From Phycisphaerae bacterium (GTDB taxonomy: Bacteria; Planctomycetota; Phycisphaerae; UBA1845): DNA of 40,182 nucleotides. Below the pieces are notes generated by a model. It saw nothing but the letters and a program-made list of their open reading frames with translations, did no database searches and was not told where the DNA came from. The stretch is from positions 1 to 40,182 of the forward strand of contig JAJDDR010000483.1 of assembly GCA_029260255.1 (NCBI GenBank), read 5' to 3'. A program made the position numbers and the translations under genes. The first letter of the stretch is position 1. Each line of letters opens with the position of its first letter. Shown in pieces: positions 3,174-38,553 of the stretch.

Positions 3174-3304
3174 GGGTGTGACCATTGATTGTGGCATGCC
3201 AGGGGTAGGGCGGGTTCCACCCGCCTTCTTCCTCGGTTGCGGCGGGTAGAACCCGCCCTACGGCATGTCTCTGACCAACGATGCCACAGAGAATGGTCAC
3301 ACCC
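3174..3304 (+). mobile_element. 131-bp MITE-like palindromic element, copy 1
   Basis: TIR gggtgtgaccatt (3174-3186) / aatggtcacaccc (3292-3304); flanked by 9-bp direct repeat CGTTGCTTT at 3165-3173 and 3305-3313. Confidence 0.9.
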
Positions 3305-3617
3305 CGTTGCTTTGGGCTTCCGCCACGGCTTGGGCTGGGTCCGGCCGACCGCGGATCGGCGTGCAGCGGGAAATAAGTCCGAAAAGCGGGATTTTCGGGG
3401 GTGTGCCGGTGGCGGCGGACCGAACGGCTGCACCGCGCTCCAGAACGCGGGGTTCACAACCAACGTGGCCGACCTGACCGACGGTGCCGACGCGGGCCTC
3501 GGGCATGTCGGCGACGTCAAGTCTCACCTGCTTTCGGCACGCGCCCCGCAAACCGGCAGGCTGGAACCTGGTGCTGCGCCACGCATCGTACGACGAGACG
3601 GGGATGAAGCCGCCAGA

Positions 3618-4363
3618 TTGGAAGACGCCTGCTGGGCGCTTTTGGATGTGATTGGGCTGATTCAAGGCCAAACGCCGGATCACTCGATGATCGCCGATTT
3701 CCTCGGCAAGCACGGCAAGGCGCTGCGCAAGCTCTTTCGCGACACGTTGCAGGTTCTGATCGAGGCGAAGCTGGTGACGCTGTCCCACGTAGCCATCGAC
3801 GGAAGCAAGGTAGAAGCGGACGCCGGCAAGAACTCCGTCCGCAGTGAAGAGAAGATCCGCTCGTGGCAAGCACACCTGGACGAGAAGATCGCCGCGTTGG
3901 AGCAGGAGCGGGCCGAGAACGAACAGCGCGAGGCCAGCCTCTTCGGGGAAACCAACAGTGAAGCGGGTCCATTGTCAGAGGCTACGCAAGAAGCGCTGGC
4001 GTTGGTTGGTGAAGACCACGTGTTGACCGAATCGCAGTGGGCGGCGTTGCCGCGAAACAACCAAGGCTTGATCGACAAATCGGCGTGTGTTTACGATGAA
4101 TCCCGGGACGTATTCAGATGTCCCGCCGGTCAGACATTGGCGTTCTTGAGCACCAGTCAAGACAAAAAGAAGTGGGGCACCGCCAAGGGGTGTGACCATT
4201 CTCTGTGGCATCATTGGTCAGGGACATGCCGTAGGGCGGGTTCTACCCGCCGCAACCGCGGAAGAAGGCGGGTGGAACCCGCCCTACCCCTGGCATGCCA
4301 CAATCAATGGTCACACCCACCGCCAAGCGCTCGGAGTGTCGTCTGGGCGTGGATCGATTACCT
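3618..4363 (+). pseudogene. Decayed IS1182/IS5-type transposase fragment, interrupted by MITE copy 2
   Basis: VIGLIQGQTPDHSMIADFLGKHGKALRKLFRDTLQVLIEAKLVTLSHVAIDGSKVEADAGKN...YRCPAGQTL-like segment (FRCPAGQTLAFLSTSQDKKKWGTAK), then element insertion at ACCGCCAAG; lacks the DDE C-terminus. Boundaries approximate. Confidence 0.75.
4188..4318 (-). mobile_element. 131-bp MITE-like palindromic element, copy 2 (inverted relative to copies 1, 3, 4)
   Basis: gggtgtgaccatt...aatggtcacaccc; 9-bp direct repeat ACCGCCAAG at 4179-4187 and 4319-4327; internal asymmetric segment in opposite orientation. Confidence 0.9.
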
Positions 4364-4370
4364 TACTTGC

Positions 4371-4970
4371 ATGGAACCCCCCGAACTGCAGCCGGAGATA
4401 CTGCTCGGCGCGTACGCCTCGGGCATCTTTCCGATGGCCGACGACGACGGCGAACTCATGTGGTTCAGCCCCGACCCGCGGGCGATCATTCCGCTCGACG
4501 CGTTTCACGTGTCGGACAATCTACGACGCCGGTACGCCTCGCACCGATTCACGCTCACGGTGAACCGCGCGTTTGAACCTGTGATGACCGCGTGTGCCGA
4601 CCGCGGCGAAGGCACGTGGATCTCCGAGGAGATCGTCGCGGCGTACGCGCGGATTCACGTGCTGGGCTTCGCACACAGCGTTGAGGCATGGCGGGACGAC
4701 GCGCTGGTCGGCGGATTGTACGGCGTGGCGATGGGCGGGGCGTTCTTCGGGGAGTCGATGTTCCATCTCGAGACGGACGCGTCCAAGGTCGCGCTGGTGT
4801 TCCTCGTGGAACGGCTGAACGAACGCGGGTTCTCGCTCCTGGACGTGCAGTTCATGACCAGCCACCTGGCGCGGTTCGGGGCGATCGAAATACCGCGCGA
4901 GGCGTACCTCGAACGACTCGAGATTGCGTCCAGCCGGACGTGCGTTTTTGCCGATGAACCGGACACCTAA
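4371..4970 (+). CDS. aat: Leucyl/phenylalanyl-tRNA--protein transferase
   Basis: MEPPELQPEILLGAYASGIFPMADDDGELMWFSPDPRAIIPL...GLYGVAMGGAFFGESMFHLETDASKVAL...LLDVQFMTSHLARFGAIEIPR; start chosen at 4371 rather than the 593-aa ORF start. Confidence 0.92.
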   Translation: MEPPELQPEILLGAYASGIFPMADDDGELMWFSPDPRAIIPLDAFHVSDNLRRRYASHRFTLTVNRAFEPVMTACADRGEGTWISEEIVAAYARIHVLGFAHSVEAWRDDALVGGLYGVAMGGAFFGESMFHLETDASKVALVFLVERLNERGFSLLDVQFMTSHLARFGAIEIPREAYLERLEIASSRTCVFADEPDT

Positions 4971-4995
4971 GCGGTTCCGGAGGCGTAGCGCGATC

Positions 4996-6960
4996 ATGGC
5001 GGTCACAACCCGTACGCTTCCGGAGACCGGTCCTTCCACGACCCTTCCGCGCTTGCCCGCCGACGCGCACCGAGTGTTCCTCGACAACATGGCCGCGCTG
5101 TGGCGACACGATCCGCAACTCGCGCAGCGCATCGACGAGATCGACGACGACGATCGACCGGCGCTGATACCGACCCGCTCCGGCGCGGTTACGGTGGCCG
5201 TCGATGCGCCGAGCGGACCGACGCTGCTGCACAGCCGGTACGACCCCGTCAAGGAAGCGGTCAAACTGATCGACGGCGTGGAGATTGATGACAAGTTCTG
5301 TTTCATCGTGTTCGGTTTCGGGTTGGGGTATCACGTACGAGAACTCTTCGGACGCCTCAAGGGGGACGCCGCCATCGTCGCCGTCGAACCGTCGATGGCA
5401 CTGCTGTCGGCGGCGCTGTCCTGCGCCGATTTCGCGGACATGATCCGCTCGGGCCGTCTGATCATTCTGGATCGCCTCGACAAGAGGATCGTCCACCAGA
5501 AGCTCAATCCGCACAACACGCTGATGATGCTCGGTGCGCGATTCCTCAATCATCCGCCGTCGCATCGTGCCGCCGCGGAGTTTCATGCCGCCGCCCGCAA
5601 GCTCATCACCGACCTCATCGCGTTCTCGCGCATGACGCTGTTGACGCTCGTCGGAAACGCTCAGGTCACCTGCCGCAACATCGCCAACAACCTGCCGCAA
5701 TACTTGAGCACGCCGCCGATCAACGTGCTCCGGGATCGCTTCAAGGGTCGCCCGGCCATCATCGTCTCGGCCGGTCCGTCGCTGCGCCGGAACGTCGAAC
5801 TGCTCTCGGAGGCGAAGGGCAAGGCGGTGCTCTGCGCGGCCCAGACGATGTTCAAGCCGCTGCTCGCACGCGGCATCGTGCCGGACTTCGTCACCAGTCT
5901 CGATTTTCACGCGATGTCCAAGCAGTACTTCAGCGACGTCTCGGACTTCCACGACGTACACCTCGTGGCGGAGCCCAAGGTGAGCTGGCACGTCACCGAC
6001 GACTTCGCCGGACCCGTTTCGCTGTTGCGCAGCTCCTTTGCGGCCGAGCTTATCGGTGACGAGTTGGCGGCGCGCGACGGGTTGAAGCCGGGCGCTACGG
6101 TCGCGCACCTCGCGTTCTACCTTGCAGAATACATGGGATGCGATCCGATCATCTTCGTCGGTCAGGATCTGGCCTTCACCGGCCACTGCTTCTACATGCC
6201 GGGCGTCGAGACGCACCTTACGTGGCAGAGCGAGATGAACCGATTCAACACGATGGAAACCAAGGAGTGGGAGCGGATCGTCCGCAACCGATCGATTCTG
6301 CGGACGATCCCCGACGTCGATGGCCGGGACGTGTATACGGACGACCTGCTGTTTACATACCTCGAGCAGTTCGAGCGCGACTTCATCGGTGCCGGCGCGC
6401 GGATCATCGATGCCACCGAAGGCGGGGCGCGAATGCGCGGCACCGACGTCATGACCTTGCAAGAGGCGCTGGACGCGTTCTGCACAGAACCGCTGCCGGG
6501 GGACGCGTTCGATTACCGGCGCACGTGCGACTGGAACGACCCCGCGCTTCTGACGCAGGGTCGCGCCGAGATCGAGAAACGCATCGAAGAGATCAAGGAC
6601 GTTCGCGAGACTTGTGTCGAGATGCTGTCCGTGCTGCACGAGCTCGAGGGGCTCACGGATGACCCCGCCCGGTTCAACCGCCGCATCATTCGCGTGGACG
6701 AACTTCGTGCCTCGATCAGCCGCGCCGCGCGCTCCGTGCGTATCGTCAACGCGGGCGGTCAGCTCGCCGAGTTGCAGCGGTTCACCGCCGATCGGAAGCT
6801 GAACGCCAGTGACGTCACCGGCGCGGACCTCGCCAAGCGTCAACTCGTACGTGACATCAGATTCGTCGAGCGCTTCCGTGATGGCGCGAACGCGATGATC
6901 GACATCCTCCGCGACGCGCTCCGGCGGTTCGACGAACATGAAACGGACGAACGATCATGA
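4996..6960 (+). CDS. DUF115 / 6-hydroxymethylpterin pyrophosphokinase MptE-like (Maf-type glycosylation) protein
   Basis: GRPAIIVSAGPSLRRNVELLSEAKGKAVLCAAQTMFKPLLARGIVPDFVTSLDFH; GCDPIIFVGQDLAFTG motif typical of DUF115/MAF_flag10; stop overlaps next start (ATGA at 6957). Confidence 0.82.
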   Translation: MAVTTRTLPETGPSTTLPRLPADAHRVFLDNMAALWRHDPQLAQRIDEIDDDDRPALIPTRSGAVTVAVDAPSGPTLLHSRYDPVKEAVKLIDGVEIDDKFCFIVFGFGLGYHVRELFGRLKGDAAIVAVEPSMALLSAALSCADFADMIRSGRLIILDRLDKRIVHQKLNPHNTLMMLGARFLNHPPSHRAAAEFHAAARKLITDLIAFSRMTLLTLVGNAQVTCRNIANNLPQYLSTPPINVLRDRFKGRPAIIVSAGPSLRRNVELLSEAKGKAVLCAAQTMFKPLLARGIVPDFVTSLDFHAMSKQYFSDVSDFHDVHLVAEPKVSWHVTDDFAGPVSLLRSSFAAELIGDELAARDGLKPGATVAHLAFYLAEYMGCDPIIFVGQDLAFTGHCFYMPGVETHLTWQSEMNRFNTMETKEWERIVRNRSILRTIPDVDGRDVYTDDLLFTYLEQFERDFIGAGARIIDATEGGARMRGTDVMTLQEALDAFCTEPLPGDAFDYRRTCDWNDPALLTQGRAEIEKRIEEIKDVRETCVEMLSVLHELEGLTDDPARFNRRIIRVDELRASISRAARSVRIVNAGGQLAELQRFTADRKLNASDVTGADLAKRQLVRDIRFVERFRDGANAMIDILRDALRRFDEHETDERS

Positions 6961-8594
6961 AGTGCATCGCGGCGATCGAAGTGGACCTGAACGAGTCGCC
7001 CATAGGCACGAAGAGCCGCGCCGATCGTGAGATGCACGGCAAGCCGGTGCTCACGCGGACGATCGAGCAGATGTGCAAGTCGAAGCGTATCGACCATCTG
7101 TTCGTCCTGTGCCCTTCGAACCAGTCCGAGCGGTGTACGCGCCTGGTACCTGACGAACTCTCCCGCCGCGTCACGGTGCGGGTGAGACGCATCGATGCCC
7201 AGCCGTATCGTGCGCTGATTCGAACGGCGCGCAAGTGGTCGCTCGACGCCTGGCGCGGCGGAATCGGCGGAACGTGCTCCATGGACGAGTACACGCGTAG
7301 CGATGAACTTGCACTGTTGGCCCATGACGAATCGGCGGAGGCACTATTGTGCGCCTCGGCCTGCGCGCCGCTCATCGATCCGGTGCTCATCGACACCATG
7401 ATCGACCATTCGGAGCGCACCACCGACGAAGCTCGCATCACCTTCGCGCAGGCGCCGCCCGGGTTGGTGGGCACGGTTTACCAAACGGACTTTCTCATGG
7501 AGATCGGCGCGCAGCACGTCCCACCCGGGATGGTGCTGAGCTACAAGCCGGATCACCCGATGATGGACCTGGCCCACAAATCCTGCTGCTACACCGCGCC
7601 GGCGGCGGTGCGTCACGCCGGCGGGCGACTGATCGTGGACACCGATCGGGCGTTTGAGACCGTCGGCGCGTACCTGTCGACCGGCATGCCGATCGAGGCG
7701 GAGACCGTCGGACGCTGGCTGATCGAGAAGGCTGACGCGGAGATTCCGGACCTGCCGCGCGAGGTCGAAATCGAGCTCACCACGGAGGACCAGCTTCCGG
7801 GCACCGTCCTCCGTCCCAGGGGTCCAGCCGTCGGTCGGCGTGGACCCATCGATATCAACATCGTCGCCAAGATCGCGCGCGAGCTGGGCGCCGTCGACGA
7901 CTCGTTGGTGCTGCTCGGCGGGTTCGGCGAGCCGCTGCTGCATCCTGAGTTTGACGAGATTCTGTCCGTTTTGAGGGAGCACGGCGTGTACGGAATCGCC
8001 GTGCGAAGCAACTGTCTGGCGCTCAGCGATGAACGAATCGACGCGCTCGTGTCCAACAAGGTCGATCTCCTCGCGGCCGCGCTGGATGCGTGGACACCTG
8101 AACTCTATCGAACCGTCCACGGTGAGGATCGACTCGAAGAGGCCGTCGCCAACGTCCGGCACCTGGCTGCCCGCCGCGCCGAGAGCGGTTTCGTCGCTCC
8201 GCTGGTGGTCCCGGAGATGACCAAGTCGGTCGACACGCTCGACGAGATGGATGCGTTCTTCGACGGCTGGGTGCGCGAAACCGGCTGGGCCAACTTCGTC
8301 GGCTACAACCACTACTCCAACCGGCGGGACGATCGTTGTGTCATCGAAATGGCGCCGCCGACGCGACGTGCCTGCCGTCGTATCGGCACGCGCGCGACGG
8401 TTCTGGCCGACGGTCGCATGATTGTCTGCGATCAGGATTACGAAGGTCGACATGCCGCGGGTACCCTCGCCAAGGCGACGCTTCGGGAGATCTGGCACTC
8501 GGAGGCGATGGACAAGGTTCGGCGACGCCACCGCGGAGGGGAATACGACGCGTTATCGATCTGCGGTAAGTGTGCCGAATGGCACCGACCGTAG
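6957..8594 (+). CDS. N-terminal nucleotidyltransferase-like domain fused to radical-SAM-like/SPASM protein lacking the CxxxCxxC cluster motif
   Basis: C-terminal LLGGFGEPLLHPEFDEIL (radical SAM GGE-type motif) and SPASM-like CRRIGTRATVLADGRMIVCDQDYEGRHAAGTL...ICGKCAEW; N-terminal HGKPVLTRTIEQMCKSKRIDHLFVLCP. Confidence 0.75.
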   Translation: MKCIAAIEVDLNESPIGTKSRADREMHGKPVLTRTIEQMCKSKRIDHLFVLCPSNQSERCTRLVPDELSRRVTVRVRRIDAQPYRALIRTARKWSLDAWRGGIGGTCSMDEYTRSDELALLAHDESAEALLCASACAPLIDPVLIDTMIDHSERTTDEARITFAQAPPGLVGTVYQTDFLMEIGAQHVPPGMVLSYKPDHPMMDLAHKSCCYTAPAAVRHAGGRLIVDTDRAFETVGAYLSTGMPIEAETVGRWLIEKADAEIPDLPREVEIELTTEDQLPGTVLRPRGPAVGRRGPIDINIVAKIARELGAVDDSLVLLGGFGEPLLHPEFDEILSVLREHGVYGIAVRSNCLALSDERIDALVSNKVDLLAAALDAWTPELYRTVHGEDRLEEAVANVRHLAARRAESGFVAPLVVPEMTKSVDTLDEMDAFFDGWVRETGWANFVGYNHYSNRRDDRCVIEMAPPTRRACRRIGTRATVLADGRMIVCDQDYEGRHAAGTLAKATLREIWHSEAMDKVRRRHRGGEYDALSICGKCAEWHRP

Positions 8595-8700
8595 CCCGCC
8601 TGCGTGATATTTTAGGCGGGTGCCACTGGCAGCTTGCCTGCCAGTGTGTATGCCCTGTGCGCCCGCCTGCGTGACCACACGGGCGGACAAGCCGCCCGTG
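8595..8700. repeat. Cluster of three consecutive perfect hairpins (REP/terminator-like)
   Basis: cccgcct(8595-8601)/aggcggg(8614-8620); cactggcag(8624-8632)/ctgccagtg(8638-8646); cacgggcgg(8678-8686)/ccgcccgtg(8692-8700). Confidence 0.65.
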
Positions 8701-8958
8701 GGTCCGACCAATCCGGGTTCCCTGCCTGCAACCCACGTCTCTCGCCCGACCCTGAGAGCGACTGAGGACGAAGCGCGAAGGAAGCCGTCGATGGTCATGA
8801 TCGCCACGGACGATTCCAGTTGAAATCCGCAGTGATACACTGTGATACGGACACACGCCGATTCTGTCACAGACGCTCGAGTCCATCATTTGATGAGAAT
8901 TGCGTGAGGTGGAGACTTGGTTTGTGATACGATCACTCACGGAAGGGAAGGGGATGAA

Positions 8959-9717
8959 ATGCGACACTTCGTGCTCACAACGATGACGAGTTTGGCGGTG
9001 CTGGCCTTGGGCGCCGGGGGTGCGCGGGCAGAGGGAGTTTGGTTTTCGTTTCACGAGGCGAGCGGGAGCGGGTGGGCCAACCTGTTCGACGGCGGACCGG
9101 TCGTCACCGATGAAGACGCCACCACCGGGCCTGACGACGCGCTGATGATCTTTACAGCAATCGACAGCACCCAGCCGGGCTCGTTCGGTGCGGGCGTGAC
9201 GGGGGCGGGCGTATCTTGGATCGTCCCACTGTTCGAAGAGGACGGTATGCACCTGTCGGTTGGGCTTGATGCATGGTACAGCCCGTCGCTGTTTCCCGGG
9301 GGGGACAACCCCGGTGGCGCTGCCGAGGCCGAGATCCACTCGATCATCGAGTTCATCATGCCGGCGGACGAGCTTCTTTGGGATTATCAGCTCCAGATAC
9401 GCGATACGATCGACTTCGACGGTACGACCAGCGTTGTTTTTGAAAACGTGACACAATCGCAAGTGGTGCTGGAGCTCACGTCGGAGGTTTTTCTACCGAT
9501 CGAGACTACGCTCACGGGTCAAACGGGCGATCTGATGCGCCTGACGACGACGATGTCCGGCGCCGGGAGTACGGGTCCGCCGGGCGGGGGAGGGTACGAA
9601 TCAACATTGCGCATGGGCTTCGCCGTTCCGGAGCCCGGGACGTTCTTTCTGGTTCTGGTCGGGTTGTTCTTGTTGGCATTGCGCAGAAAGGACGGTGTGA
9701 ATGAGTTCTTGAAATGA
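8959..9717 (+). CDS. Secreted PEP-CTERM sorting domain protein
   Basis: Signal peptide MRHFVLTTMTSLAVLALGAGGARAEG; C-terminal VPEPGTFFLVLVGLFLLALRRK; RBS-like ggaagggaagggg before ATG at 8959. Confidence 0.85.
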   Translation: MRHFVLTTMTSLAVLALGAGGARAEGVWFSFHEASGSGWANLFDGGPVVTDEDATTGPDDALMIFTAIDSTQPGSFGAGVTGAGVSWIVPLFEEDGMHLSVGLDAWYSPSLFPGGDNPGGAAEAEIHSIIEFIMPADELLWDYQLQIRDTIDFDGTTSVVFENVTQSQVVLELTSEVFLPIETTLTGQTGDLMRLTTTMSGAGSTGPPGGGGYESTLRMGFAVPEPGTFFLVLVGLFLLALRRKDGVNEFLK

Positions 9718-9826
9718 CGGACGTACGCCCACCACCAGCATTTCGCGGTGGACGGCGCAAAGGGCCGGAGATCAGTACGTGGAAGTATCATGACAAGTCA
9801 GTCTGAGAACATTGGAGGTTTGAAAG

Positions 9827-11224
9827 ATGAGACGAATGCAGTGCATTTCTCTTGTGTGCGTGTGTCTTCTTGCGGGTTCGGCGACGGGGCAGTTGGTGTA
9901 CTACGTCGACAAGAACGCCACGGGGTCGGGTTCGGGCCAGGATTGGTGCAACGCCAACCCGAATCTCTCGAACGGGATATTCTTTGCCCTTCTACTCAAT
10001 TACACTGAGGTCTGGGTGGCCGACGGGACGTACGTCCCGAACGGCGATCGCACGGCCACATTTGCCCTGAACAACTTGCTCGTGATCAGGGGCGGCTACG
10101 CGGGATGCGACGCGCCGCCTTCGGACCCGGATCTGCGGGACGTTGACCTGTACGTCTCCGTCCTGAGCGGGGACACCGGAACTCCGGGGCAAAACAAATA
10201 CCACGTCGTGACCGGAAGCGGGACCAGCGTCATCTGGGCGGAACTCGAGGGCTTCACCATCACCGGCGGGCTGGCCGATGGCGACGAAACCCTGGGCCAG
10301 CGCGACGGCGCGGGGTTGTACAACGTCGCCGGGAGCCCGAAGATCACCGACTGCACGTTTTCGAACAACACCGCGCTGGGCGATGCGGGCGCGATTTTCA
10401 ATCGCGGTTCCAGTCCGCGGCTGAAGGAATGCAACTTCATTCAGAACAACGGGCACAACGGCGGGGCGATCATTAACCTCGACCACAGCAACCCGTTTCT
10501 GAACAACTGCTTCATGTAACCGTTCACGGGTCGGCGATCAGGAGTGACGGGATCGCCGGGTACCGCCGACGACTTCCGGATCAGTGCGTTTTCACCGGTC
10601 ATCGACGCCGCGGGCAACGCGGAGATCCCGGCCGGGTACATCGATCCCCGGCAGGAAAGTACCGACGGGGTCAACGTGGACTTGGGGATCACGCAAGTTG
10701 CGATCTTGTTCGACAGGCCTGTGGTGAGCCTCGCGACGGGGAACCCTGTCACCGTCGCCGATTTCAGCGTCACAAGTACCGGAGGTACTGCTCCCGGCGT
10801 CTTCAGCGTCGACAATTCCGGGAACCCAACGATCGTTGTGACGTTTGACGCCATCATTCCCTTGCAGCAATGGACGACGGTTATCGCCGCCGTGAAGAGC
10901 CAAGCCACCGGGAACCCCATCGTCAATGTCGGTAATCTCGGGGCCGATGACGAACCGGACCGGTTGGACATCGGTTTCTTGCCGGCGGATGTTGATCAGA
11001 GTGGAGACGTGGGTCCGTTCGACATTTTGCAGTTCCGGCAGTACGTCAACCTGGTCATCGTGCCGACGGAGGGCGTTCTCGGCGACTACATCGATACCAA
11101 TCGAAATGGAGTCGCCGGCACGGGTGACCCGTTCGATCTGCTGGCCCTGCGTCAACTGGTCAACGGTGTCTCGCCGCCGGCCACGAAGGTCTGGAACGAA
11201 CAAACACTGCCGACCCGTCCGTAA
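9827..11224 (+). pseudogene. Beta-helix (pectin-lyase-like) protein with C-terminal dockerin-like module; split by in-frame TAA at 10517-10519
   Basis: ORF 9827-10519 (signal peptide, DGAGLYNVAGSPKITDCTFSNNTALGDAGAIFNRGSSPRLKECNF beta-helix repeats) and ORF 10544-11224 (PGTADDFRISAFSPVIDAAGN...DVDQSGDVGPFDILQFRQYVN...DTNRNGVAGTGDPFDLLALRQLVNG) are in the same reading frame. Confidence 0.65.
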
Positions 11225-11251
11225 GGAACACGGATCGCAAAACGCCCAACT

Positions 11252-11288
11252 CGACGGACCTGGGACCTGATGTCCCTCAGGTCCGTCG
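11252..11288 (+). terminator. Strong hairpin downstream of the beta-helix/dockerin gene
   Basis: cgacggacctgggac...gtccctcaggtccgtcg near-perfect inverted repeat; no clear U-tract. Confidence 0.45.
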
Positions 11289-11498
11289 TTGCGCATGAGC
11301 GGCTTGCCCGATGAGCTTGCCACGCGAAACCAACTTGCCTGAACCCCGTTTCGGGTCCATGACGCGTGACGGCCCTAGGGGAACGAACGTCGCATCCAAG
11401 ACGCGCGGCCCCCCGCCGACGCTTGAAAGGGCACTTGGTGGGCTCTACACTTCGGTGGTGGCTTCGATGCAAGTGCAAACGCGAGAGCGGCGAACTAC

Positions 11499-13178: not shown

Positions 13179-13355
13179 AACCGGACGCGTATGGAAACCC
13201 GAGATGTTGAACGTCGCCATTCCGAGCACAGCGAGAAATCTAGCTGCATCCGGTGCAAGATGCTTCGCGGAGTTTATCCCGAGCACGATCGAGGGGCTCA
13301 GCATGACGGTCGACGAATCATCCCCTCTACAGTGTTCCGCGCCGTGTGACATGCC

Positions 13356-14330: not shown

Positions 14331-14522
14331 TCCCGCCAGCCCGAATCGCCCCGATATTCCATTCAATTGATTGACTTTCCAGCGCACCGGCACACGCGGC
14401 GTAGTATCATAAACTCAGACGCAAGAGGCCCGTCGTGGTCACGTTGGTGGACGTGCCCGGTGACGCAACCGCAACGCCGGCGTGCACGTCGTAACGGATC
14501 GAGTGAGGAAGCGAGCGACAAA

Positions 14523-20705: not shown

Positions 20706-20709
20706 GCGA

Positions 20710-22443: not shown

Positions 22444-22451
22444 GAGTTCGG

Positions 22452-25976: not shown

Positions 25977-26197
25977 GCTACGATGCTCCGTTGGTTCGAC
26001 AGACGCACCGGTCGGATCGGTGCGGTTCGTTGCTCGCCCTGATCGCGAGCGGCGTCCCGCGTTTTCGCGAGATTTCTGCTTTCGACGCAACGCCGCGTTG
26101 GGCTGTGAGACCCCTGCCGCGGTCGGTTGCCAATCCGGGCGATTGTCCGCCGCCGCCGCCGCCAAGTCAAGAATCACAGGACCGCGGGGAGATGTTG

Positions 26198-26328
26198 GGG
26201 TGTGACCACTGATGGTGGCATGGCAAGGGTAGGGCGGGTTTCACCCGCCTTCTTCCTCGGTTGCGGCGGGCAGAACCCGCCCAACGGCATGTCCCTGACC
26301 GACGATGCCACAGAGAATGGTCACACCC
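26198..26328 (+). mobile_element. 131-bp MITE-like palindromic element, copy 3
   Basis: gggtgtgaccact...aatggtcacaccc; 9-bp direct repeat GAGATGTTG at 26189-26197 and 26329-26337. Confidence 0.9.
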
Positions 26329-26359
26329 GAGATGTTGGAGTGCCTCCCAAAGAGACGAG

Positions 26360-26447
26360 CATTCCGGGTGGCCACGCTCGCGTGGCCGTGGCTCGCAAGC
26401 TGTCGCCGCATGCCCACGCAAGCTGTCGCATGATGCCACCCGGAATG
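26360..26447. repeat. Second, unrelated inverted-repeat element with nested hairpin and internal direct repeat
   Basis: cattccgggtggc (26360-26372) / gccacccggaatg (26435-26447); hairpin ggccacg-ctcg-cgtggcc (26370-26387); direct repeat cgcaagctgtcgc at 26394-26406 and 26417-26429. Confidence 0.6.
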
Positions 26448-26583
26448 GGATGCCCCCTGTGGAGCCTGCCCGCCTGCAGCCGTCCGATAGGGGGGTGCGG
26501 CTGGCGCGGGAAACAATGAAGCGCCCTCGGAACCGACGCAAATATTTGGCAGAAGGCGGCTTATGTAAATCGATGCGGCGGCG

Positions 26584-27261: not shown

Positions 27262-27266
27262 CGTCG

Positions 27267-27848
27267 ATGAGCGAACGAGACGAGTCAACACAGTCCGACG
27301 ACTATATGGTCAGTATGTACCTCGATGGCGCGCTCACCGAGGACGAAGCACGCCGGCTCCTCGCGCGTGTTGAGCGCGACACTGAGTTGGCCCGTCTCCT
27401 CGCGGAACATCAGCGGGTCGAGCGCTGGGCGACTGAATGGGGCGATGAGATACCGACTGTCGATTGGTCGCGCTTTGAGGCGGAATCCAGGCGGCGGCGC
27501 GCGTCGCTGAGTTCGCCCGACCGGCGCGGTCTTGTTTTCAAGTTGTATGTGCCGATGGCCGCGGCCGCTGCGATCATGATTGCGCTTACGGCGTCTCAGT
27601 TCGTGGTGCGGGATGTGTCGCCCGGTGTCGTGATTGCGCCGAGGGTGGCGGTTGTCGAAGTTCTGCGTTCCGCGGCGCCGGAGTCCGTGGAAGTGCGCCA
27701 GACGTACGTTTCGTATGCGCGCGGGTCGCGCGACGATCGGGCGAAAGGGCTGGTGCGGTCGGCTGACGGACCCGCGGTCATCGCCTGCGCCACGGTGGGC
27801 GGGCGTTTTGATTGGTCGTCCGTCGGCGGTGGTATTTCTGCGAATTGA
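27267..27848 (+). CDS. Putative anti-sigma factor (single TM)
   Basis: Immediately downstream of the ECF sigma gene; SMYLDGALTEDEARRLLARVERDTELARLLAEHQRVERW then TM FKLYVPMAAAAAIMIALTASQFVV. Confidence 0.65.
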   Translation: MSERDESTQSDDYMVSMYLDGALTEDEARRLLARVERDTELARLLAEHQRVERWATEWGDEIPTVDWSRFEAESRRRRASLSSPDRRGLVFKLYVPMAAAAAIMIALTASQFVVRDVSPGVVIAPRVAVVEVLRSAAPESVEVRQTYVSYARGSRDDRAKGLVRSADGPAVIACATVGGRFDWSSVGGGISAN

Positions 27849-27855
27849 GACTCTT

Positions 27856-28992: not shown

Positions 28993-29193
28993 GCAAGCCG
29001 AACCATGACCGCGCCGGCGTGGGCCTGCCGCCCCGCACGGGAGGCAGGCTCGCCCGCTCGTGACTGAGGGGTTACTTTGCGGTCGTTGGGGACGCCGCTA
29101 GAATGCCCCGTTGTTCGGTCCGGTTGGACCGCCCATGAGCCGTCCACCCGGACGGAGTCGCACGAGCTGCAAAACGGTGGGAGATGAATCGCA

Positions 29194-30549
29194 GTGCTTG
29201 AACGTATGGTCGCGCGACCGAACCGATGGACGGCGCTGGCCGCGGCGTGTGTGGCGATGGGTCTTGCCCCACGGGGTCTCGTCGGTGCGGCGCATTCGGC
29301 CGAAGCGCGGATCACGGTGAAGGAGCGCACGGTCGATCTGGGTCGGTTGAAAGAAGGGAACAAGGGAACCGCGAAGTTCCTGCTCGAGAATCACGGCGAC
29401 GCGGTCCTGCACATCGAGCGGGTGTTCGCGACGTGCGGATGCACCGTTCCGAAGAAGCTGTCGCCGGAGGACGCCCGCGTGCAGCCGGGCGAGTCGCTGG
29501 AGATCGAGGCAGTGTTCGACACCAAGGGTCGCCGCGGCCGGCAGCGCAAGACCGTCACGGTGCTGTCCAATGATCCGGCGGAACCGGAGTTGAAGCTCTT
29601 TCTGACCGCGGAGGTCGTCGCGCTGTTTGAGGTGCTGGTCAAGGACCGCCCCAGCCTGCGCATGGCGTTCGGCAAGCACAAGCCCGGGGATGCCGTCGAA
29701 GAGGTAATAGACCTGCTTCCGACCGAGCCGGGCTCCACGTTGTCGCTGGTCTCGCTCGATATACGCCACGCGGCGCTGACGTACGAAACGGAGGCCACCA
29801 CCAGAGACGATCGCGAGGGCGTCCGCGTGAAACTGGCTATCGATCCCGATGCGTCGGTCGGTCCGGTGTCGACCAGCCTGCTCATCTCCGCAAAGGTCGG
29901 CGACGAGCGGGCGGATTCGAGCCTGGCGCTGAGCGGCGAAGTCGTCGGCGTTCTGGCCTTCAGTCCGGCGACCATCAAGCGGTTGCAGCCGGCGCTGCCC
30001 GGCACGTCGCTGCCGCCGGTATCGGTGTCGTCGGATCTCGACCACCCGTTCGATGTTCTCTTGGTCGACGGAGGGCCTAACATCGAGGCGACCGCCGAGC
30101 GTCAATCGCCGTACAGCTATCGAATCAAACTTCGTATCGCGGAATCGGCGTCGCCCGGTCCGTTCGGTCAGTTCCTCGACATTCGAACGAGCGTTGTGGA
30201 ACAGCCGCTGGTTCGGATACCGGTGTACGCCGCGGTGCGTCCGAGAGTGCAGGTCGAGCCGCCGTTCGTTGTGCTGCAATCGGGACTCGGTAAGCATACC
30301 TCGAGACTGGTCAAGATCGCGTCGTCTTCCAACGACGCAATGGAACTCGGCACGATAGTGACGGAATCACCGTATATCACCGTCGAGCCGGCCGAATCGC
30401 CGGGACGAAAGAGCAAGACCTTCAAGCACCTGCGGATCAGTGCCGGCGGCGATGCGCCCGTGGGGATACACCAAGCGGTGGTTCGCGTCACGACGGGGCT
30501 CACCGGGCAGCGGGAAGTGTTGATACCGGTGACGCTGTTGGTTCGGTAG
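29194..30549 (+). CDS. DUF1573 domain protein (secreted)
   Basis: VDLGRLKEGNKGTAKFLLENHGDAVLHIERVFATCGCTVPKKLSPEDARVQPGESLEIEAVFDTKGRRGRQRKTVTVLSNDP. Confidence 0.8.
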   Translation: MLERMVARPNRWTALAAACVAMGLAPRGLVGAAHSAEARITVKERTVDLGRLKEGNKGTAKFLLENHGDAVLHIERVFATCGCTVPKKLSPEDARVQPGESLEIEAVFDTKGRRGRQRKTVTVLSNDPAEPELKLFLTAEVVALFEVLVKDRPSLRMAFGKHKPGDAVEEVIDLLPTEPGSTLSLVSLDIRHAALTYETEATTRDDREGVRVKLAIDPDASVGPVSTSLLISAKVGDERADSSLALSGEVVGVLAFSPATIKRLQPALPGTSLPPVSVSSDLDHPFDVLLVDGGPNIEATAERQSPYSYRIKLRIAESASPGPFGQFLDIRTSVVEQPLVRIPVYAAVRPRVQVEPPFVVLQSGLGKHTSRLVKIASSSNDAMELGTIVTESPYITVEPAESPGRKSKTFKHLRISAGGDAPVGIHQAVVRVTTGLTGQREVLIPVTLLVR

Positions 30550-30600
30550 GGTGCGCGGGAAGCCTGCGTTTCGGCTGAAGAGGCCGGTGTATGGGAGTCG

Positions 30601-30777
30601 ATGATGCCTAGAGAGCGAGATGGCGACGGGGAGCAGAACGCCCCGGAGTCCAAATGGAACGATCCGAGCATTCCGGCGGGAAACTCACCGCCGCTGCCGT
30701 CATGGCCGCTCTGGGTGTCGGCCGCGCTGTGGTGCGGCTGGACCGGCGTGCTGCTGGTGACGGCGCTCGGTCGCTAG
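30601..30777 (+). CDS. Small single-TM protein (58 aa), absent from supplied ORF track
   Basis: MMPRERDGDGEQNAPESKWNDPSIPAGNSPPLPSWPLWVSAALWCGWTGVLLVTALGR*, closely follows the DUF1573 gene; hairpin ggtgtc-N8-gacacc (30784-30803) directly after the stop. Confidence 0.55.
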   Translation: MMPRERDGDGEQNAPESKWNDPSIPAGNSPPLPSWPLWVSAALWCGWTGVLLVTALGR

Positions 30778-30913
30778 CGTGGTGGTGTCTCGAAAATGAC
30801 ACCGTTATTCTGAACCGAGCCGCGACCGTGAGGGAGCGGTCCCGAGTGTGCCTCCGCGTGTCCCCTCTCTTACGGTCGGGGCTTGAAACAATGCCATCTC
30901 TGATGGGGCGTCC

Positions 30914-32722
30914 ATGGCCGGCGGTGTTCAGGAAGCGACGGAGCGAACGGCGTTCACCGACAACATCTCCGCGTTGCGATCGCGCCGGCCCGATCTAGCG
31001 GATCGGCTGGCGGGCGTAGCGATTCCCGCAACCGCCACCCCGGCGGTCGCGCGGGACGGCACGGCGACTTTTCGATTGGTCGATCAGGACGGTTCCCCGC
31101 GATGGCTCGGGCGGACGTCGACGCCCGCGGTCCGCGCCGCGGCGTTGGTGGAGGGGTACGGCGCCGAGAGCGGCAATGTTCTGCTTCCCGCGATGGGCAG
31201 CGGGATGGAGGTTGTCGCGTTGCTCGATCACCTGGCGTGCCATGCGGCCGTGTTCGTCCACGAGCCGGATGTGGTCGCTCTTCGGTTGGTGCTTGCGGTT
31301 CGCGATTTCTCGGGAGCCCTGCGTGCGGGGCGCTTGGTCATCCTCTCGTCGGCGGACGCCGCAGAGGCGCTGGTCGGGTTTTTCAATGACGCGCCCGGAT
31401 ACGAGTTTCCGCAGAAACTCCTGATATTGCCGGACATCGATGACTCGGTGATCACGGCGCTTCGCACATCGTTGGAGCACGCTTCCCGGCGGGTCGGTCA
31501 GATGCAACTCGCATACGTGGCACAACGACGTGCCGCGCTCGGCGCTCGCGCGCGGAACCGGGCGGGCTTGAACTGTATTGGAATCAGCACGATCGATCCG
31601 AGGTCGACGGCAATGGAGGCGGTCCGGTCTCTGGCCGATGCGTCGCGCGATTCGGGCCTGACGGCGGTGGCCAACACGCCCGACGCACCGGATAAGTGCC
31701 ACACTTCGGCACTAATTGGCGCGATCGACAATACCGCCGCGGACGGGGCGGTGCTGGTGAACTGCGGGTGGGGTCCGCTGGCGCAACACATGCCCGCGGA
31801 CTTCCCGGCGGTGAGCTGGCTCCTGCCCGACACGCGACTGATCGCCGGAATGACGGACGGGTTTGGGAACCGCCACGCCGTAATGGCGTCAACCGCGGCG
31901 TTGCGTGCCGCCGCGATCGAAGCCGGCGCACGCGCGGATCGCGTGGCGATGCTCGACGTGGGGTTCGATGCCACCGTGTTTCGACCGGTCGACACGCCGG
32001 AGGCCGATCGGTTCGACGTTGCGTTCTTCGGTGATATCGCCAACCTCGAGCCGGAGCCGTTGGGGATCACCCTGGCGAGCCAGGTGTGCGTGTGGAAGCA
32101 CCTCCGCCTGGAGGCGGCCGACAGGTTGAACGCGCCCGCGGATCGAGTGCTCAAAGCCGCCGAGCGCGCGAGCGGAGTTCGCCTCGGTGACGACCACATT
32201 CGGCGCGAGTTTCTCCGGCTGACCGACGGGATGATCATGCCGACGATGGTGAAACGCGCGCTGGTCCAGGCGTTGCTTGATGCGGGTTTCGACGTTCGGA
32301 TCTTCGGAAGCGGGTGGCAGTACAGCCGCGTTCCCGCGCCGGTTGTACGCGACGCGCCGAGCACGCCCGCCGCGCGCAACGAGGTCTACAACGCCGCCCG
32401 GGCATGTATCAGTCCATCGTGCGATCATGAATCGGCACGAGCGTGCCTGGAGGTCGCCCTCACCGGGGGCTGTTCGTTCTTTCACGCGCCGCACGACCTC
32501 CCGCCTGCCGATCACGCGCGGCGCTCCGACGCGGTGGCGGTTCTGCCTTCGTTTGTGACGCCGCGGGAGATGTGCGCGTCGGTCAAACGCCATCTTCGCG
32601 GTGACGTCGGGATGACCGAGGCTTGCCGGCGTGCCGGCGACATCGTGCGCCAGCGGCACCTCCTCAGTCACAGGTTTGCCGAGATCCGCGCGGCGCTTGC
32701 ACGATTGATCAGCACGTCGTAA
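30914..32722 (+). CDS. Two-domain protein: DUF115-like N-terminus plus CgeB/GT4-like glycosyltransferase C-terminus
   Basis: GSGMEVVALLDHLACHAAVFVHEPDVVALRLVLAVRDFSGALRAGRLVIL; FDVAFFGDIANLEPEPLG...ALLDAGFDVRIFGSGWQ...NEVYNAARACISPSCDHESARACLEVALTGGCSFF. Confidence 0.65.
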   Translation: MAGGVQEATERTAFTDNISALRSRRPDLADRLAGVAIPATATPAVARDGTATFRLVDQDGSPRWLGRTSTPAVRAAALVEGYGAESGNVLLPAMGSGMEVVALLDHLACHAAVFVHEPDVVALRLVLAVRDFSGALRAGRLVILSSADAAEALVGFFNDAPGYEFPQKLLILPDIDDSVITALRTSLEHASRRVGQMQLAYVAQRRAALGARARNRAGLNCIGISTIDPRSTAMEAVRSLADASRDSGLTAVANTPDAPDKCHTSALIGAIDNTAADGAVLVNCGWGPLAQHMPADFPAVSWLLPDTRLIAGMTDGFGNRHAVMASTAALRAAAIEAGARADRVAMLDVGFDATVFRPVDTPEADRFDVAFFGDIANLEPEPLGITLASQVCVWKHLRLEAADRLNAPADRVLKAAERASGVRLGDDHIRREFLRLTDGMIMPTMVKRALVQALLDAGFDVRIFGSGWQYSRVPAPVVRDAPSTPAARNEVYNAARACISPSCDHESARACLEVALTGGCSFFHAPHDLPPADHARRSDAVAVLPSFVTPREMCASVKRHLRGDVGMTEACRRAGDIVRQRHLLSHRFAEIRAALARLISTS

Positions 32723-32732
32723 TACCACAACC

Positions 32733-34016
32733 ATGAGCGATCACGATCAGGCTTGCATGCCAGGCGAGGAGGCGAGCCGTGCGCGCTTGCCTCTCTTGGT
32801 GGCCGTCGTTCTGATCGTGGGTGTCCACTTCGCCGGGCGGGTGGGCGCGTTCTGTTCGCCGATTCACGCCGACAGCTACGCCTACGGCACCGTCGGGTAT
32901 CGTCTGGCGCAAGGCGAGGTGTTCTATCGCGACGTCAGCGACGTGAAGCCGCCGGGTTTGTACTTCCTCTATGCGCTCTTTTACGCGTTCCTTCCCGCGG
33001 GGCGGGTGACGATGATCCCGGCCGACACACTCTTCGGGCTTCTCGGGTATTGGGCGGTTTTTCTGCTGGGTAGGGACCTCTACGGGCGATCGGTCGGCGT
33101 CGTGGTCGCCGTGATGGCGGCCTTGATCGTGAACTTCTTCATCGTGATGGACTTCATAACGGACGCGTTCGGACTGGCTGAGGCGTTCATGATCTTCCCG
33201 CTGGCGATGGCCGCACGCAGCTACCTTCGTGGAACGACGGGAACGCGGGGAGCGCCGTTTCTCTGGTGCGGTCTTTGGCTTGGCATGGCCTTCGCGATCA
33301 AGCAGACGGCGCTGCCGCTGGCCGGGGCGATCGCGTTGCACTGGACCGCCCGCTGGGTGGCGCGCCAAAGCTCCTTCGGGTGTTGGCTTCGCGGCGCGCG
33401 GTCGATGCTCGTGGGGATGGTGATCGCGGTGATGCCGATGGTCATCATGGTGGTCGCCCAGGGAACGTGGCGACGGGCGCTCGAGCTTCTGGGTCCGGCC
33501 GCGGCGGGTATGCTCGCTCGTGAGTCGGCGTGGCCGACGCAGTGGAGCTACGTGTTGCCCCTCTGGGTACCGCTGGTGTGGTGCGTGTTGGCGATCATCT
33601 GGTGGGCGGAGCGTGGCGTGCGGTCGCGACGCGTCGCATCGGTGGCGCCGGGAGACCTGACGTTCTTGTTGGTCTGGTGCGCCGCTGAGTGCGTGATGCT
33701 GGTCTATCTGCCGCTTCGCGCGTTTCACTATTATGTACTTTCGTCGCTGCCCGTGGTGATTCTGTCGGGCGCATTCTGGAAACTGTTGATGGAGACCCTG
33801 CGGAATCACGCGCGGCGGGTGATGGTGTGTGGCGTTGCGGCCGCGGCGGTGTTCTCGATGGCGTTCGTTCGTCTGATTCCAGATATGATCGTGCCCGCCG
33901 CGATCGCGCGATACCGTCTCTACGACGCGACCGCGGACAGGGCGCACTTCGAGAAGGTGCTGTCGTTGAAGATAAACACGTTCGGCGCGCCGCCGCCGCC
34001 GCCGAAGGCCGATTGA
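32733..34016 (+). CDS. PMT/GT39-like membrane glycosyltransferase (paralog A)
   Basis: Multi-TM; GVHFAGRVGAFCSPIHADSYAYGTVGYRLAQGEVFYRDVSDVKPPGLYFLYALFY. Confidence 0.7.
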   Translation: MSDHDQACMPGEEASRARLPLLVAVVLIVGVHFAGRVGAFCSPIHADSYAYGTVGYRLAQGEVFYRDVSDVKPPGLYFLYALFYAFLPAGRVTMIPADTLFGLLGYWAVFLLGRDLYGRSVGVVVAVMAALIVNFFIVMDFITDAFGLAEAFMIFPLAMAARSYLRGTTGTRGAPFLWCGLWLGMAFAIKQTALPLAGAIALHWTARWVARQSSFGCWLRGARSMLVGMVIAVMPMVIMVVAQGTWRRALELLGPAAAGMLARESAWPTQWSYVLPLWVPLVWCVLAIIWWAERGVRSRRVASVAPGDLTFLLVWCAAECVMLVYLPLRAFHYYVLSSLPVVILSGAFWKLLMETLRNHARRVMVCGVAAAAVFSMAFVRLIPDMIVPAAIARYRLYDATADRAHFEKVLSLKINTFGAPPPPPKAD

Positions 34017-34024
34017 GAGTGCAC

Positions 34025-35068
34025 ATGACCGGCGGACGGAACGAACTTCACGAGGACCGACCGGTGTTGCGGGTGGTCGCGCTTCTCGCGAGCTGCGGGT
34101 GGATCGCGGCCATCGTGGTCGCGCGGCGCGGAACGAATCTCGCGACGGACGATCAGTCGCTGGCCATGTCGGTCGCGGCGGCGGTGGTGATCGGCGTGTC
34201 GTTTGTGGCGGCGACGTTGCTGCTGTCCGGTGTTTTGCTTGCGGGTGGCGCGGCACGACGACGCGACGGCGCTCTCGTGGCGGGGATTCTGTTCTCGGTA
34301 ACGATTTCGGGGTTGATCGCCGACGGACGGCTCGTCGCGTGGGATGCGGCGGCCGGGTTTCTCGCCCTCGCGGGAGCCACGGTGGTCCTCTGGACGCCGA
34401 GTCGTTGGATCGGCGCGCTGCTGATCGGCGCGGCGTGCGGCCTTGCGCCGCTGTGTGCATCCGCGCTGAGTGTGTTGCTCCTCGTTGGTCGCGGTGGGCA
34501 TCGGATTGCGGGAGCGCTCGCGGCGGTGGTCGTCGGGGTTGGTGTCTGTGTGGTGATTCAGTCGGTGACGGGGCGGACGCCGGGCGAGAGTCTGACCGTG
34601 GGGGACGACGTCATGCGGATCGGGCCGCAGAACCTGTGGCGATTCGTGGCGTCGTGGCTCGATCTGGTTACGCCCGTGTTGGTTCTCGCGCTGATCGCGG
34701 CGGCGGACCGGTTCTTCAGTCCGGAAGCCGGCGACACCGACGATGCCGCAAGTGACGTCTCGCAGCCAGACGGCATCTCTCCGGGACGCTACACGGGCGC
34801 CGGTGCGCTGACGGTTTGGCTGGCCGTCAACGCGGCGGTTGCGTTGCTGCTTTCGCGCGCAATCGTGGGACACGGCTTCTTGCTGGTGTTGCCGGCGTTT
34901 CTGCTGGCGGCGGCCGGTTGGCGTGCGGTGTGCTGCCTGCCGTTTGATCGTTCGGACTTGACGCTGTCGCTGTTCTCCGCGCTGTGTCGGGCGATGCCAT
35001 TTGCCTTGCTGTGGGTGCCGTTTCGCAAGGCGGGAGAGATCGTGTTGGTGGCCTGGTACGGATCATGA
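34025..35068 (+). CDS. Multi-TM integral membrane protein
   Basis: MTGGRNELHEDRPVLRVVALLASCGWIAAIVVARRG... many hydrophobic segments; ATGA overlap with next gene. Confidence 0.6.
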   Translation: MTGGRNELHEDRPVLRVVALLASCGWIAAIVVARRGTNLATDDQSLAMSVAAAVVIGVSFVAATLLLSGVLLAGGAARRRDGALVAGILFSVTISGLIADGRLVAWDAAAGFLALAGATVVLWTPSRWIGALLIGAACGLAPLCASALSVLLLVGRGGHRIAGALAAVVVGVGVCVVIQSVTGRTPGESLTVGDDVMRIGPQNLWRFVASWLDLVTPVLVLALIAAADRFFSPEAGDTDDAASDVSQPDGISPGRYTGAGALTVWLAVNAAVALLLSRAIVGHGFLLVLPAFLLAAAGWRAVCCLPFDRSDLTLSLFSALCRAMPFALLWVPFRKAGEIVLVAWYGS

Positions 35069-36369
35069 ACGGCGCCGGGATCAACGGGCTGGATGGGAAA
35101 GAGGTTTGTGGGACGCGGGGTCGAGCATGTGTGATCGCGGCGGCCGTCGCGCTGATCGTCGGAGTGCATATCGCGGGGCGGGTCGGGGCGTACTGCTCGC
35201 CGCTGAGTTCGGATGACAGTTACATATTCGCCGGCTTCGGCTGCCGGATGGCGCATGGCGATGTTCTCTATCGCGACATGAGCGACATCAAGCCGCCGGG
35301 GCTCTTCATGGTGTACGGGTTGGTGTACCGCGTCGCGCCGGCGGTGCGCGCGGCCGTCGTTCCGGTCGAGACGGTGTTCCTACTCCTAGGCTATGCGGCG
35401 GTGTACTACGCCGCTGCGGAGGCGTTCGGCAGACGAGCGGCGCTCGCCGTGACGGTCCTGTCGGCGCTGACCATCAACTACTTCTCCGTGACCGGCGTCG
35501 CCATTGTGGGGTTCGGCGTCGCGGAGAACTTCATGGTCTTTCCCGCGGCGGCCACGGCTTGGATGTATGTGCGGGCGTTGCGGACGGGACGAGAAGGAGC
35601 GTTGCTCGCGGCGGGCGTTTTCATGGGCGTGGGCACGTGCCTCAAGCAGACGGCGCTGCCGTTGGTCGTCGCGCTGACCATTCACTGGACGCTTGTGATG
35701 TTGATTCGTCGGCGTTCAACGGCGCGTTGGATTCGGGGGCTGCTTCGGATGTTCCTCGGCGGTTGCATCGGCTGGGCGCCCGCCATCGCCCTGCTGGCGA
35801 TGCAGGGGACGCTGCTCACTGCGGTGCGGCTGCTGACATCGGATGCGGGTGCGATGCTTGCGCGCGGGTGCGCCTGGCCTGACGAGTGGCGGGACGTATT
35901 GCCCTTGTGGGTGCCGATGGTTTGGGCGGCTTGGGCGCTGGCGCGGCGGATTGAGTGCGGCGTTCGCGGTGAGTCGATGATGGAGACCGGGTCTGCGCGC
36001 GTCGTGACCTTCTTGATGCTGTGGACCGCGGCGGAGGTCGTGATGCTGTGGCGGCTGCCGCTGCGCTCGCCGCATTACTACGTGGTTTCCTGCGTGCCGT
36101 TCATGCTGCTGGCGGGTGTGCCGATCGCGGCGTTCGGCAGGAGTGTCACCAAAATGGCACCCAGAGCGCGGACCGTGGCGTGGTCCGTGGCCGTGGTTCT
36201 TTCGGGCGTTTTTCTGCGACCTGTCGTGGATGAAATCGTGCCCCGCGCCATCGGAGCCTATCGCAGTTACGATTGGGCGGAGGAGCAGCGGCGTTTCGAC
36301 GAGGCACTCGATTGGGGTCCGATCCACTTCGGGCGGGGGGATCCGTTCATCGCGGAGCTGGAGCGGTGA
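35065..36369 (+). CDS. PMT/GT39-like membrane glycosyltransferase (paralog B)
   Basis: GVHIAGRVGAYCSPLSSDDSYIFAGFGCRMAHGDVLYRDMSDIKPPGLFMVYGLVY, clearly paralogous to 32733-34016; ATG at 35065 overlaps previous stop. Confidence 0.72.
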   Translation: MNGAGINGLDGKEVCGTRGRACVIAAAVALIVGVHIAGRVGAYCSPLSSDDSYIFAGFGCRMAHGDVLYRDMSDIKPPGLFMVYGLVYRVAPAVRAAVVPVETVFLLLGYAAVYYAAAEAFGRRAALAVTVLSALTINYFSVTGVAIVGFGVAENFMVFPAAATAWMYVRALRTGREGALLAAGVFMGVGTCLKQTALPLVVALTIHWTLVMLIRRRSTARWIRGLLRMFLGGCIGWAPAIALLAMQGTLLTAVRLLTSDAGAMLARGCAWPDEWRDVLPLWVPMVWAAWALARRIECGVRGESMMETGSARVVTFLMLWTAAEVVMLWRLPLRSPHYYVVSCVPFMLLAGVPIAAFGRSVTKMAPRARTVAWSVAVVLSGVFLRPVVDEIVPRAIGAYRSYDWAEEQRRFDEALDWGPIHFGRGDPFIAELER

Positions 36370-36430
36370 GCCGCGGACGGATCGAGGAATGACGGGTTGC
36401 GGCGAATCGATCGCATTCAACGAACCGAGT

Positions 36431-37195
36431 CTACGCAAGCTGCGCGATGAAGATGTAGTTCACGTCGTCAATGTCCAGCAGCGGGTTGTAAAACTCCGAC
36501 GCGCGCACGTCGACGCTCGCAAACACGGATTTCAGATGACCGACGAAGGCGTCGTCCGGCGGATCGGCCGACCAGAGGGCGAACACGCCGTCGCGGTGGA
36601 GACGCTCGGTGAGCTTCGTCAGGCCTTCGAGCGTGTAGAACGCCGCGTGCGCCGGCTGGAGCAGGCTCTGCGGTGAATGGTCGATGTCGACCAGGATGGC
36701 GTGGTACCGTCTTGACCCGATATTGACAGTGTCACTCTGGTTGCCGGGCGGGGATTGACCGGATTCCGGGTGTGCCATCGTGGCAAAGAAGTCGCCACGC
36801 AGCAGGGTGCAGCGGGCGCTCGTCGTGAGTTCCTCGCTGACCGGGAGCAGCCCGCGGCGGTGCCAGTCCATGACACGGTCGACGTACTCGATAACCGTCA
36901 CGGATGCTACGTTGCTTGCGTCCAGGGCGGCCTTGGCCGTGTAGCCCAGGCCGAGACCACCGACCAGAACGTCGCAGGCGTCGTGCGGGACAAGGGGTAA
37001 TGCGTACGTCGCGAGCGCGAGTTCCGCGTCGTTGACCAAGCTGGACATGAGGAACTCGCCGTCCAGCGCGACCTCGAAGACCTCAGTGTCGTCAAGCGAT
37101 AGAACCTGCCGGCGGCGGAGGATCAGTTCGCCGATGGGGGTCGGACCGTAGTCGAGTTCTTCGAAGGCCCGCGGGCGCCTCTTCGGTTCCGGCAT
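36431..37195 (-). CDS. Spermidine-synthase-like / SAM-dependent methyltransferase-fold protein
   Basis: MPEPKRRPRAFEELDYGPTPIGELILRRRQVLSLDDTEVFEVALDGEFLMSSLVNDAELAL...VLVGGLGLGYTAKAALDASNVASVTVIEYVDRVMDW...YHAILVDIDHSP. Confidence 0.72.
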   Translation of the reverse strand: MPEPKRRPRAFEELDYGPTPIGELILRRRQVLSLDDTEVFEVALDGEFLMSSLVNDAELALATYALPLVPHDACDVLVGGLGLGYTAKAALDASNVASVTVIEYVDRVMDWHRRGLLPVSEELTTSARCTLLRGDFFATMAHPESGQSPPGNQSDTVNIGSRRYHAILVDIDHSPQSLLQPAHAAFYTLEGLTKLTERLHRDGVFALWSADPPDDAFVGHLKSVFASVDVRASEFYNPLLDIDDVNYIFIAQLA

Positions 37196-37197
37196 CT

Positions 37198-38310
37198 TCA
37201 ACTGCGGCGGCGGCCGCTGCCGCGCGTGTGGAAAAGTGCATACGACAAAGCGAGGAGCGGCAGCATCTCGATCCCGAGGATGCCGCAGAGCCAACCGAGA
37301 GGCGTGCCCGACAGGCTCGCGCCCGCCGGTTTGAACTCCGCGATGGCGCGGTTGAGTCGCGTTTCGAGGCGCTTTGCACTGTCCGCCGGAATGCCGAGTT
37401 CGATGATCTCCGCCGCTTCGTCGAAGGGGCGGCCGAAGACCGCAACCACGCCGGTTCCGTCGGGCAGGTTGGCTACGTTCGTCGTGAACTCCGCCTCCAG
37501 CGTGAGCTGTTCACCGGGCGTGACGGTGTAGTCATACTCCAGGTCCTGCTGGAGGATCACGGCCACCTGAGCCGAGGCGAGCGCGGCGAACTCGATGTCG
37601 GGCAGGCCGGGAACGGAGGCGCTTCCGGCATCGTCGGGGAGAATCGCGAGGTCGCCGGCGAAGACCAACAGGTTGTTCGCGTCCTCGAACGCGATGGTGC
37701 CGTTCGGACCGCCGCGCAACGCAACGCGCTCGCTGACCAGAACCGTCTCCGTTTCATCGGCGTCGATCTTGCGCACGACGAACGTTACCTCGCCGAGCAA
37801 GCCGGTGAGGTCGCGCTGGGCGCTCGTCGACCATGCAAAGATCGCGCCCGAAGCGAATACGGCGCTGCGCACGGTCTGCGTGCGAGTCGTGGGGTCGCCC
37901 AACTCGTCCGCCGAAAAGCTCACCATGCGACGTTCCACGACGCTGCTGGTCAACTCGTAGCGGGTCGACGCGTCGCTCGAAAAGCAGTTGGCTTCGATGG
38001 CGATTTCTTCAGGATTGCGCCCGGCGCCCGCGATGGTTGGATCGCGAAACTCGGACAACGCGATAGCCTTCGCGCTGATCGCGTCGCCTTCGTCCAGGCT
38101 CTCGAGGATGGCGCGGGCGTCGATCGGCGGCAACAGGCCGGACTCCCCGAAGTTCTCGATGGCTTCATCGGAGGATTCCGCCACGTCGTTGACGAAGGCC
38201 TGCACGGTGCTGCGGATCTCCGCCGTGACACTCTCCACGACGGCCAAGGCGTCGGTCGCCACGCAGAGCACGATTGCTACGGTACACGAGATGGTCATTC
38301 TGGCATGCAT
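37198..38310 (-). CDS. Secreted protein of unknown function with C-terminal hydrophobic/basic tail
   Basis: Signal peptide MHARMTISCTVAIVLCVATDALA; C-terminus PLGWLCGILGIEMLPLLALSYALFHTRGSGRRRS; ATG at 38310. Confidence 0.6.
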   Translation of the reverse strand: MHARMTISCTVAIVLCVATDALAVVESVTAEIRSTVQAFVNDVAESSDEAIENFGESGLLPPIDARAILESLDEGDAISAKAIALSEFRDPTIAGAGRNPEEIAIEANCFSSDASTRYELTSSVVERRMVSFSADELGDPTTRTQTVRSAVFASGAIFAWSTSAQRDLTGLLGEVTFVVRKIDADETETVLVSERVALRGGPNGTIAFEDANNLLVFAGDLAILPDDAGSASVPGLPDIEFAALASAQVAVILQQDLEYDYTVTPGEQLTLEAEFTTNVANLPDGTGVVAVFGRPFDEAAEIIELGIPADSAKRLETRLNRAIAEFKPAGASLSGTPLGWLCGILGIEMLPLLALSYALFHTRGSGRRRS

Positions 38311-38422
38311 GGTATGTGGTTCTCCACTCGCCTCGATAATGGTCGAACGATTGCCTGGACACCGAACTCTACGGCAAAACGAAGCTGGAGTCGACTTTTC
38401 TTGGACTTTCCCACGCCGCCGG

Positions 38423-38553
38423 CGGTGTGACCACTGATGGTGGCATGGCAAGGGTAGGGCGGGTTCCACCCGCCTTCTTCCTCGGTTGCGGCGGGTAGAA
38501 CCCACCCTACGGCATGTCCCTGACCGACGATGCCGCAGAGAATGGTCACACCC
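38423..38553 (+). mobile_element. 131-bp MITE-like palindromic element, copy 4
   Basis: cggtgtgaccact...aatggtcacaccc; 9-bp direct repeat CGCCGCCGG at 38414-38422 and 38554-38562. Confidence 0.9.

Follow-up and report, generated by a model that had tools for sequence, protein, structure and literature searches.

MITEs, ISKra4-family insertion sequences (ISs) and REPINs are each already known, and the element described here is a chimeric variant of the bacterial MITE. Some members of the ISKra4 family insert upstream of promoters. Target duplications of 8 or 9 bp have been published for the Mutator superfamily (PMC3942029). For REPs of the GTAG type, dispersal by RAYT tyrosine transposases is thought likely (PMC3116915, PMC3733652). 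Moreover, REP dimers inside larger palindromes were described in 2013 in Anabaena variabilis and Halothiobacillus neapolitanus (PMC3733652). In this study, we describe a family of small repeats from a Phycisphaerae bacterium (GCA_029260255.1), four copies of which lie in the stretch analysed here, positions 1 to 40,182 of contig JAJDDR010000483.1 (the window, 40,182 nucleotides). Very probably it is a non-autonomous MITE family that bears the ends of ISKra4-family ISs and is moved in trans, a REPIN in its middle being copied along.

A sequence-only reading of the window had reported four 131-bp copies between different perfect 9-bp direct repeats. All four sizes and flanks were re-measured and are exact (Table 1); the chance of a perfect flanking pair of 9-mers is about 4^-9 per site. 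Copy 4 has C, not G, as its first base. The inverted ends given as 13-bp repeats in that reading are present, but the repeat is longer: beyond the first 13 bp and a short gap it resumes as TGTGGCAT, making about 24 bp of imperfect terminal inverted repeat in all. Adjoining copy 3 is a second dispersed palindromic repeat of about 88 bp (26369-26457, ends CATTCCGGGTGGC / GCCACCCGGAATG); more than 20 places in the source genome resemble it, as do some in a genome of the same genus (G038).

Table 1. Coordinates of the MITE copies, their REPIN cores and the interrupted transposase fragment in the window.
Feature	Position	Strand	Remarks
MITE copy 1	3174..3304	+	131 bp; perfect 9-bp duplication CGTTGCTTT (3165-3173 and 3305-3313)
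REPIN core of copy 1	3205..3261	.	inverted REPs 3205-3225 and 3241-3261
IS1182-family transposase fragment, interrupted by copy 2	3618..4187 (start approximate)	+	NF033551, E=1e-24
MITE copy 2, inverted	4188..4318	-	131 bp; perfect duplication ACCGCCAAG (4179-4187 and 4319-4327)
REPIN core of copy 2	4231..4287	.	
MITE copy 3	26198..26328	+	131 bp; perfect duplication GAGATGTTG (26189-26197 and 26329-26337)
REPIN core of copy 3	26229..26285	.	
MITE copy 4	38423..38553	+	131 bp; perfect duplication CGCCGCCGG (38414-38422 and 38554-38562)
REPIN core of copy 4	38454..38510	.	

The target of copy 2, which lies outside the MITE itself and between copies 1 and 2, is a fragment of an IS1182-type IS, at whose end the copy sits. 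Three other fragments of this IS in the genome (C451, C416 and C247; 95-97% identical) carry the target once, as ACCGCCGAG (ACCGCCAAG in the window), without an insert. About 2 bp past the target the window fragment diverges from them, and only the left side is strongly matched. In G038, homology to the surroundings of copy 2 starts only at the aat gene, so that the empty-site evidence for this copy is paralogous and not orthologous. Across the junctions of copies 3 and 4, G038 gave no match. The comparison with empty sites proposed in the sequence-only reading thus yielded paralogous sites for copy 2 and no orthologous ones for copies 3 and 4. These data also bear on the idea that the repeats are static regulatory hairpins, i.e. 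terminators or attenuators inherited vertically. The predicted fold is indeed strong (z = -8.35 as single-stranded DNA), but the flanks are unrelated and carry 9-bp duplications, one copy sits in an IS1182 fragment whose paralogs are empty, and an Rfam scan of the window returned no match; we give this explanation next to no credence.

The source genome comprises 5.75 Mb in 618 contigs and is 92.9% complete. Searches of the whole genome by BLAST, as earlier proposed, and by end pattern brought up about 65 related elements of several subfamilies, mostly 131 bp long, with one subfamily of 119 bp. In the loci examined, 71 end pairs were counted, of which about five are spurious additional pairings. 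Perfect 9-bp duplications flank 46 of these 71 pairs (45 distinct sequences) and perfect 8-bp duplications another six; several further 9-bp duplications have one or two mismatches. Target columns hold at most 0.14 bit each, which amounts to no target consensus. Window copy 1 has exact matches over all 131 bp on C402 and C19; the duplications of the three differ, suggesting that they moved recently. On two contigs (C257 and C616), two elements are direct neighbours, separated by a 9-bp duplication. The duplication CCGCTCCTG is shared by two copies (L022 and L039) from different subfamilies, by coincidence or as a repeated target. An alignment of 18 copies shows conserved ends and a conserved REPIN, with a variable right arm in between; since the copies are related, this conservation is no proof of selection. 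MITE behaviour is therefore supported by the terminal inverted repeats, the constant 8- or 9-bp duplications at unrelated sites, the identical dispersed copies and the paralogous empty sites for copy 2, and the transposition origin claimed from the window stands.

Regarding the core of the element, positions 32-88 (57 bp) consist of two inverted GTAG-tagged REPs (GTAGGGCGGGTTNNACCCGCC) with a short spacer, and thus form a REPIN. The sequence-only reading had set transposition against a REP; the outer element does behave as a MITE, but its core is a REPIN, and the REP matches the RAYT-linked one. Allowing up to two mismatches, the genome holds 184 REPs, 138 inside elements and the others standing alone, and stand-alone REPINs are present as well. 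Of the 11 matches to Y1 transposases in the genome, the one on C489 is clearly a RAYT (NF047646, E=6e-52). Its gene (L200 1343-1950) is intact, encodes 181 aa and is flanked on either side by the REP of the core, the two pointing the same way. Such a gene, together with the REPIN core and the stand-alone REPINs, would fit a spread of the element mainly as a REPIN via the RAYT system, with the outer arms carried along. The duplications, however, lie outside the arms and not at the REPIN boundary, and their constant 8-9 bp point to the outer ends as the substrate of a DDE enzyme, which makes spread mainly by RAYT very unlikely.

As to the source of this enzyme, IS4- and IS1-type elements had been named earlier as makers of 9-bp duplications, the family being left to inference. 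Judging by the IS ends found in the same genome, the source is most likely neither of these but ISKra4, of the prokaryotic Mutator superfamily. The window yielded no ISKra4 gene, in agreement with the earlier statement that it holds no matching transposase, although the IS1182-type fragment is present there. A search for a full-length IS with matching ends yielded ISKra4 ends on two contigs, both as fragments without an intact gene. One contig (C461) terminates in an ISKra4 3' end (GGGTGTGACCATCGATTGTGGCATCAGG) and the C-terminus of the transposase; the left end of the MITE matches this IS end in 23 of the first 24 bases. The other (C121) ends in a 5' IS end, which shares the end sequence and continues with a start codon. 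In another genome (G040), a stretch 95% identical to it runs into a disrupted frame, two pieces of which match ISKra4 (NF033572; E=8e-7 and E=1.5e-15). On C461 and C121 alike, the sequence breaks off exactly 140 bp into the IS. In a further genome (G037), at least 13 contig ends (L126-L140) fall 138-140 bp within the end of a related IS, which suggests a high-copy IS in that genome. Because these ends stop alike, we read the stops in the source genome as assembly breaks at a collapsed multicopy IS; of the ISKra4 transposase gene, the assembly there has fragments and the contig ends cut at 140 bp, and no intact gene. A 2272-bp end pair (L201) was considered as source IS and rejected, having no ISKra4 frame by eye and a duplication with two mismatches.

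ISKra4 elements with similar ends are found in three related genomes: one of 1550 bp to the contig end with a 417-aa frame (G004), one of 1550 bp with an 8-bp duplication and one stop (G002), and one of 931 bp, internally deleted, with a perfect 9-bp duplication (G007). Two observations count against an ISKra4 origin: the source genome has no intact ISKra4 transposase gene assembled, and the MITE arms differ from the IS past about 24 bp; the MITE is hence not a simple recent deletion derivative of it. Movement by another 9-bp-duplicating DDE family (IS4, IS1 or the related ISLre2) would make the likeness to ISKra4 ends a coincidence or a trace of shared ancestry. Several families make 9-bp duplications, and ISLre2 does match the same transposases, but it scores far below ISKra4, and the transposase C-terminus encoded by the matching IS of the source genome is that of ISKra4. 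We regard such an origin as improbable.

Copies of the element are also found in relatives. Degenerate copies bearing the REPIN occur in G038 and in other genera (G040 and, truncated, G007), so that the combination is probably older than the source species. A family-wide search with both exact ends returned the source genome, one REPIN-less copy in G040 and no others. The junction of arm and REPIN gave no match in a GTDB scan, which possibly did not cover the records nearest the window. In the Phycisphaerae MAG JAGLWJ (RS_12_20), ends of the same type enclose other palindromes, in a 191-bp element with the duplication GCCACGAAG and a 216-bp element with the duplication GACTGAATG; a 106-bp element without palindrome is present as well, its duplication having one mismatch. 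From these few cases, palindromic repeats may be captured recurrently by such MITEs. As a side observation, a locus of a Phycisphaerae MAG other than the source genome (L206 5198-5413) has three layers: between ends of the ISKra4 type lies a palindromic repeat, which itself contains a GTAG-tagged inverted pair.

We infer that the MITE is mobilised by an ISKra4 transposase. Acting in trans, this enzyme would recognise ends of about 24 bp (GGGTGTGRCCAT-N5-GTGGCAT) and, on inserting the element, would duplicate 8 or 9 bp of the target, with no visible preference for particular sequences. The 57-bp REPIN would have entered an ancestral MITE as a unit and would now be copied together with it. Tentatively, and as a possibility rather than a probability, the element may be doubly mobile, a REPIN with an ISKra4-type MITE as vehicle, the ISKra4 enzyme acting on the ends and RAYT able to act on the core, with palindrome capture repeated across the Phycisphaerae. 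MITEs and REPINs, both of them classes of small repeats in bacteria, are joined here, one selfish element inside another. This offers a concrete route by which a DDE transposase could spread REPs and a possible explanation for the earlier REP dimers within longer palindromes, and ISKra4 gains a probable MITE family.

With bacterial MITEs in general (e.g. MITEAba12), the family shares short length, lack of coding capacity, inverted ends and target duplications. Neither an ISKra4 MITE nor a REPIN within a MITE was found in the open-licence literature searched, which does not establish their absence from the literature. ISKra4-family ISs (p-MULT 4, Mutator superfamily; PMC3942029) resemble the MITE in end sequence and in their 8- or 9-bp duplications, and occur in the same genome and the same taxonomic family. 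Unlike them, the MITE is without a transposase gene, measures 131 or 119 bp, has arms that differ past about 24 bp and carries a REPIN in the middle. The 57-bp core corresponds to REPINs and GTAG-type REPs with RAYT (PMC3116915, PMC3733652), and the same REP flanks the RAYT gene here; in contrast to those systems, 138 of the 184 REPs are part of elements that have transposon ends and target duplications. The REP dimers of Anabaena variabilis and Halothiobacillus neapolitanus, too, lie regularly within an unrelated larger palindrome. In that case the outer palindrome was not recognised as a pair of transposon ends (PMC3733652), whereas here the ends, the duplications and the probable source family are identified.
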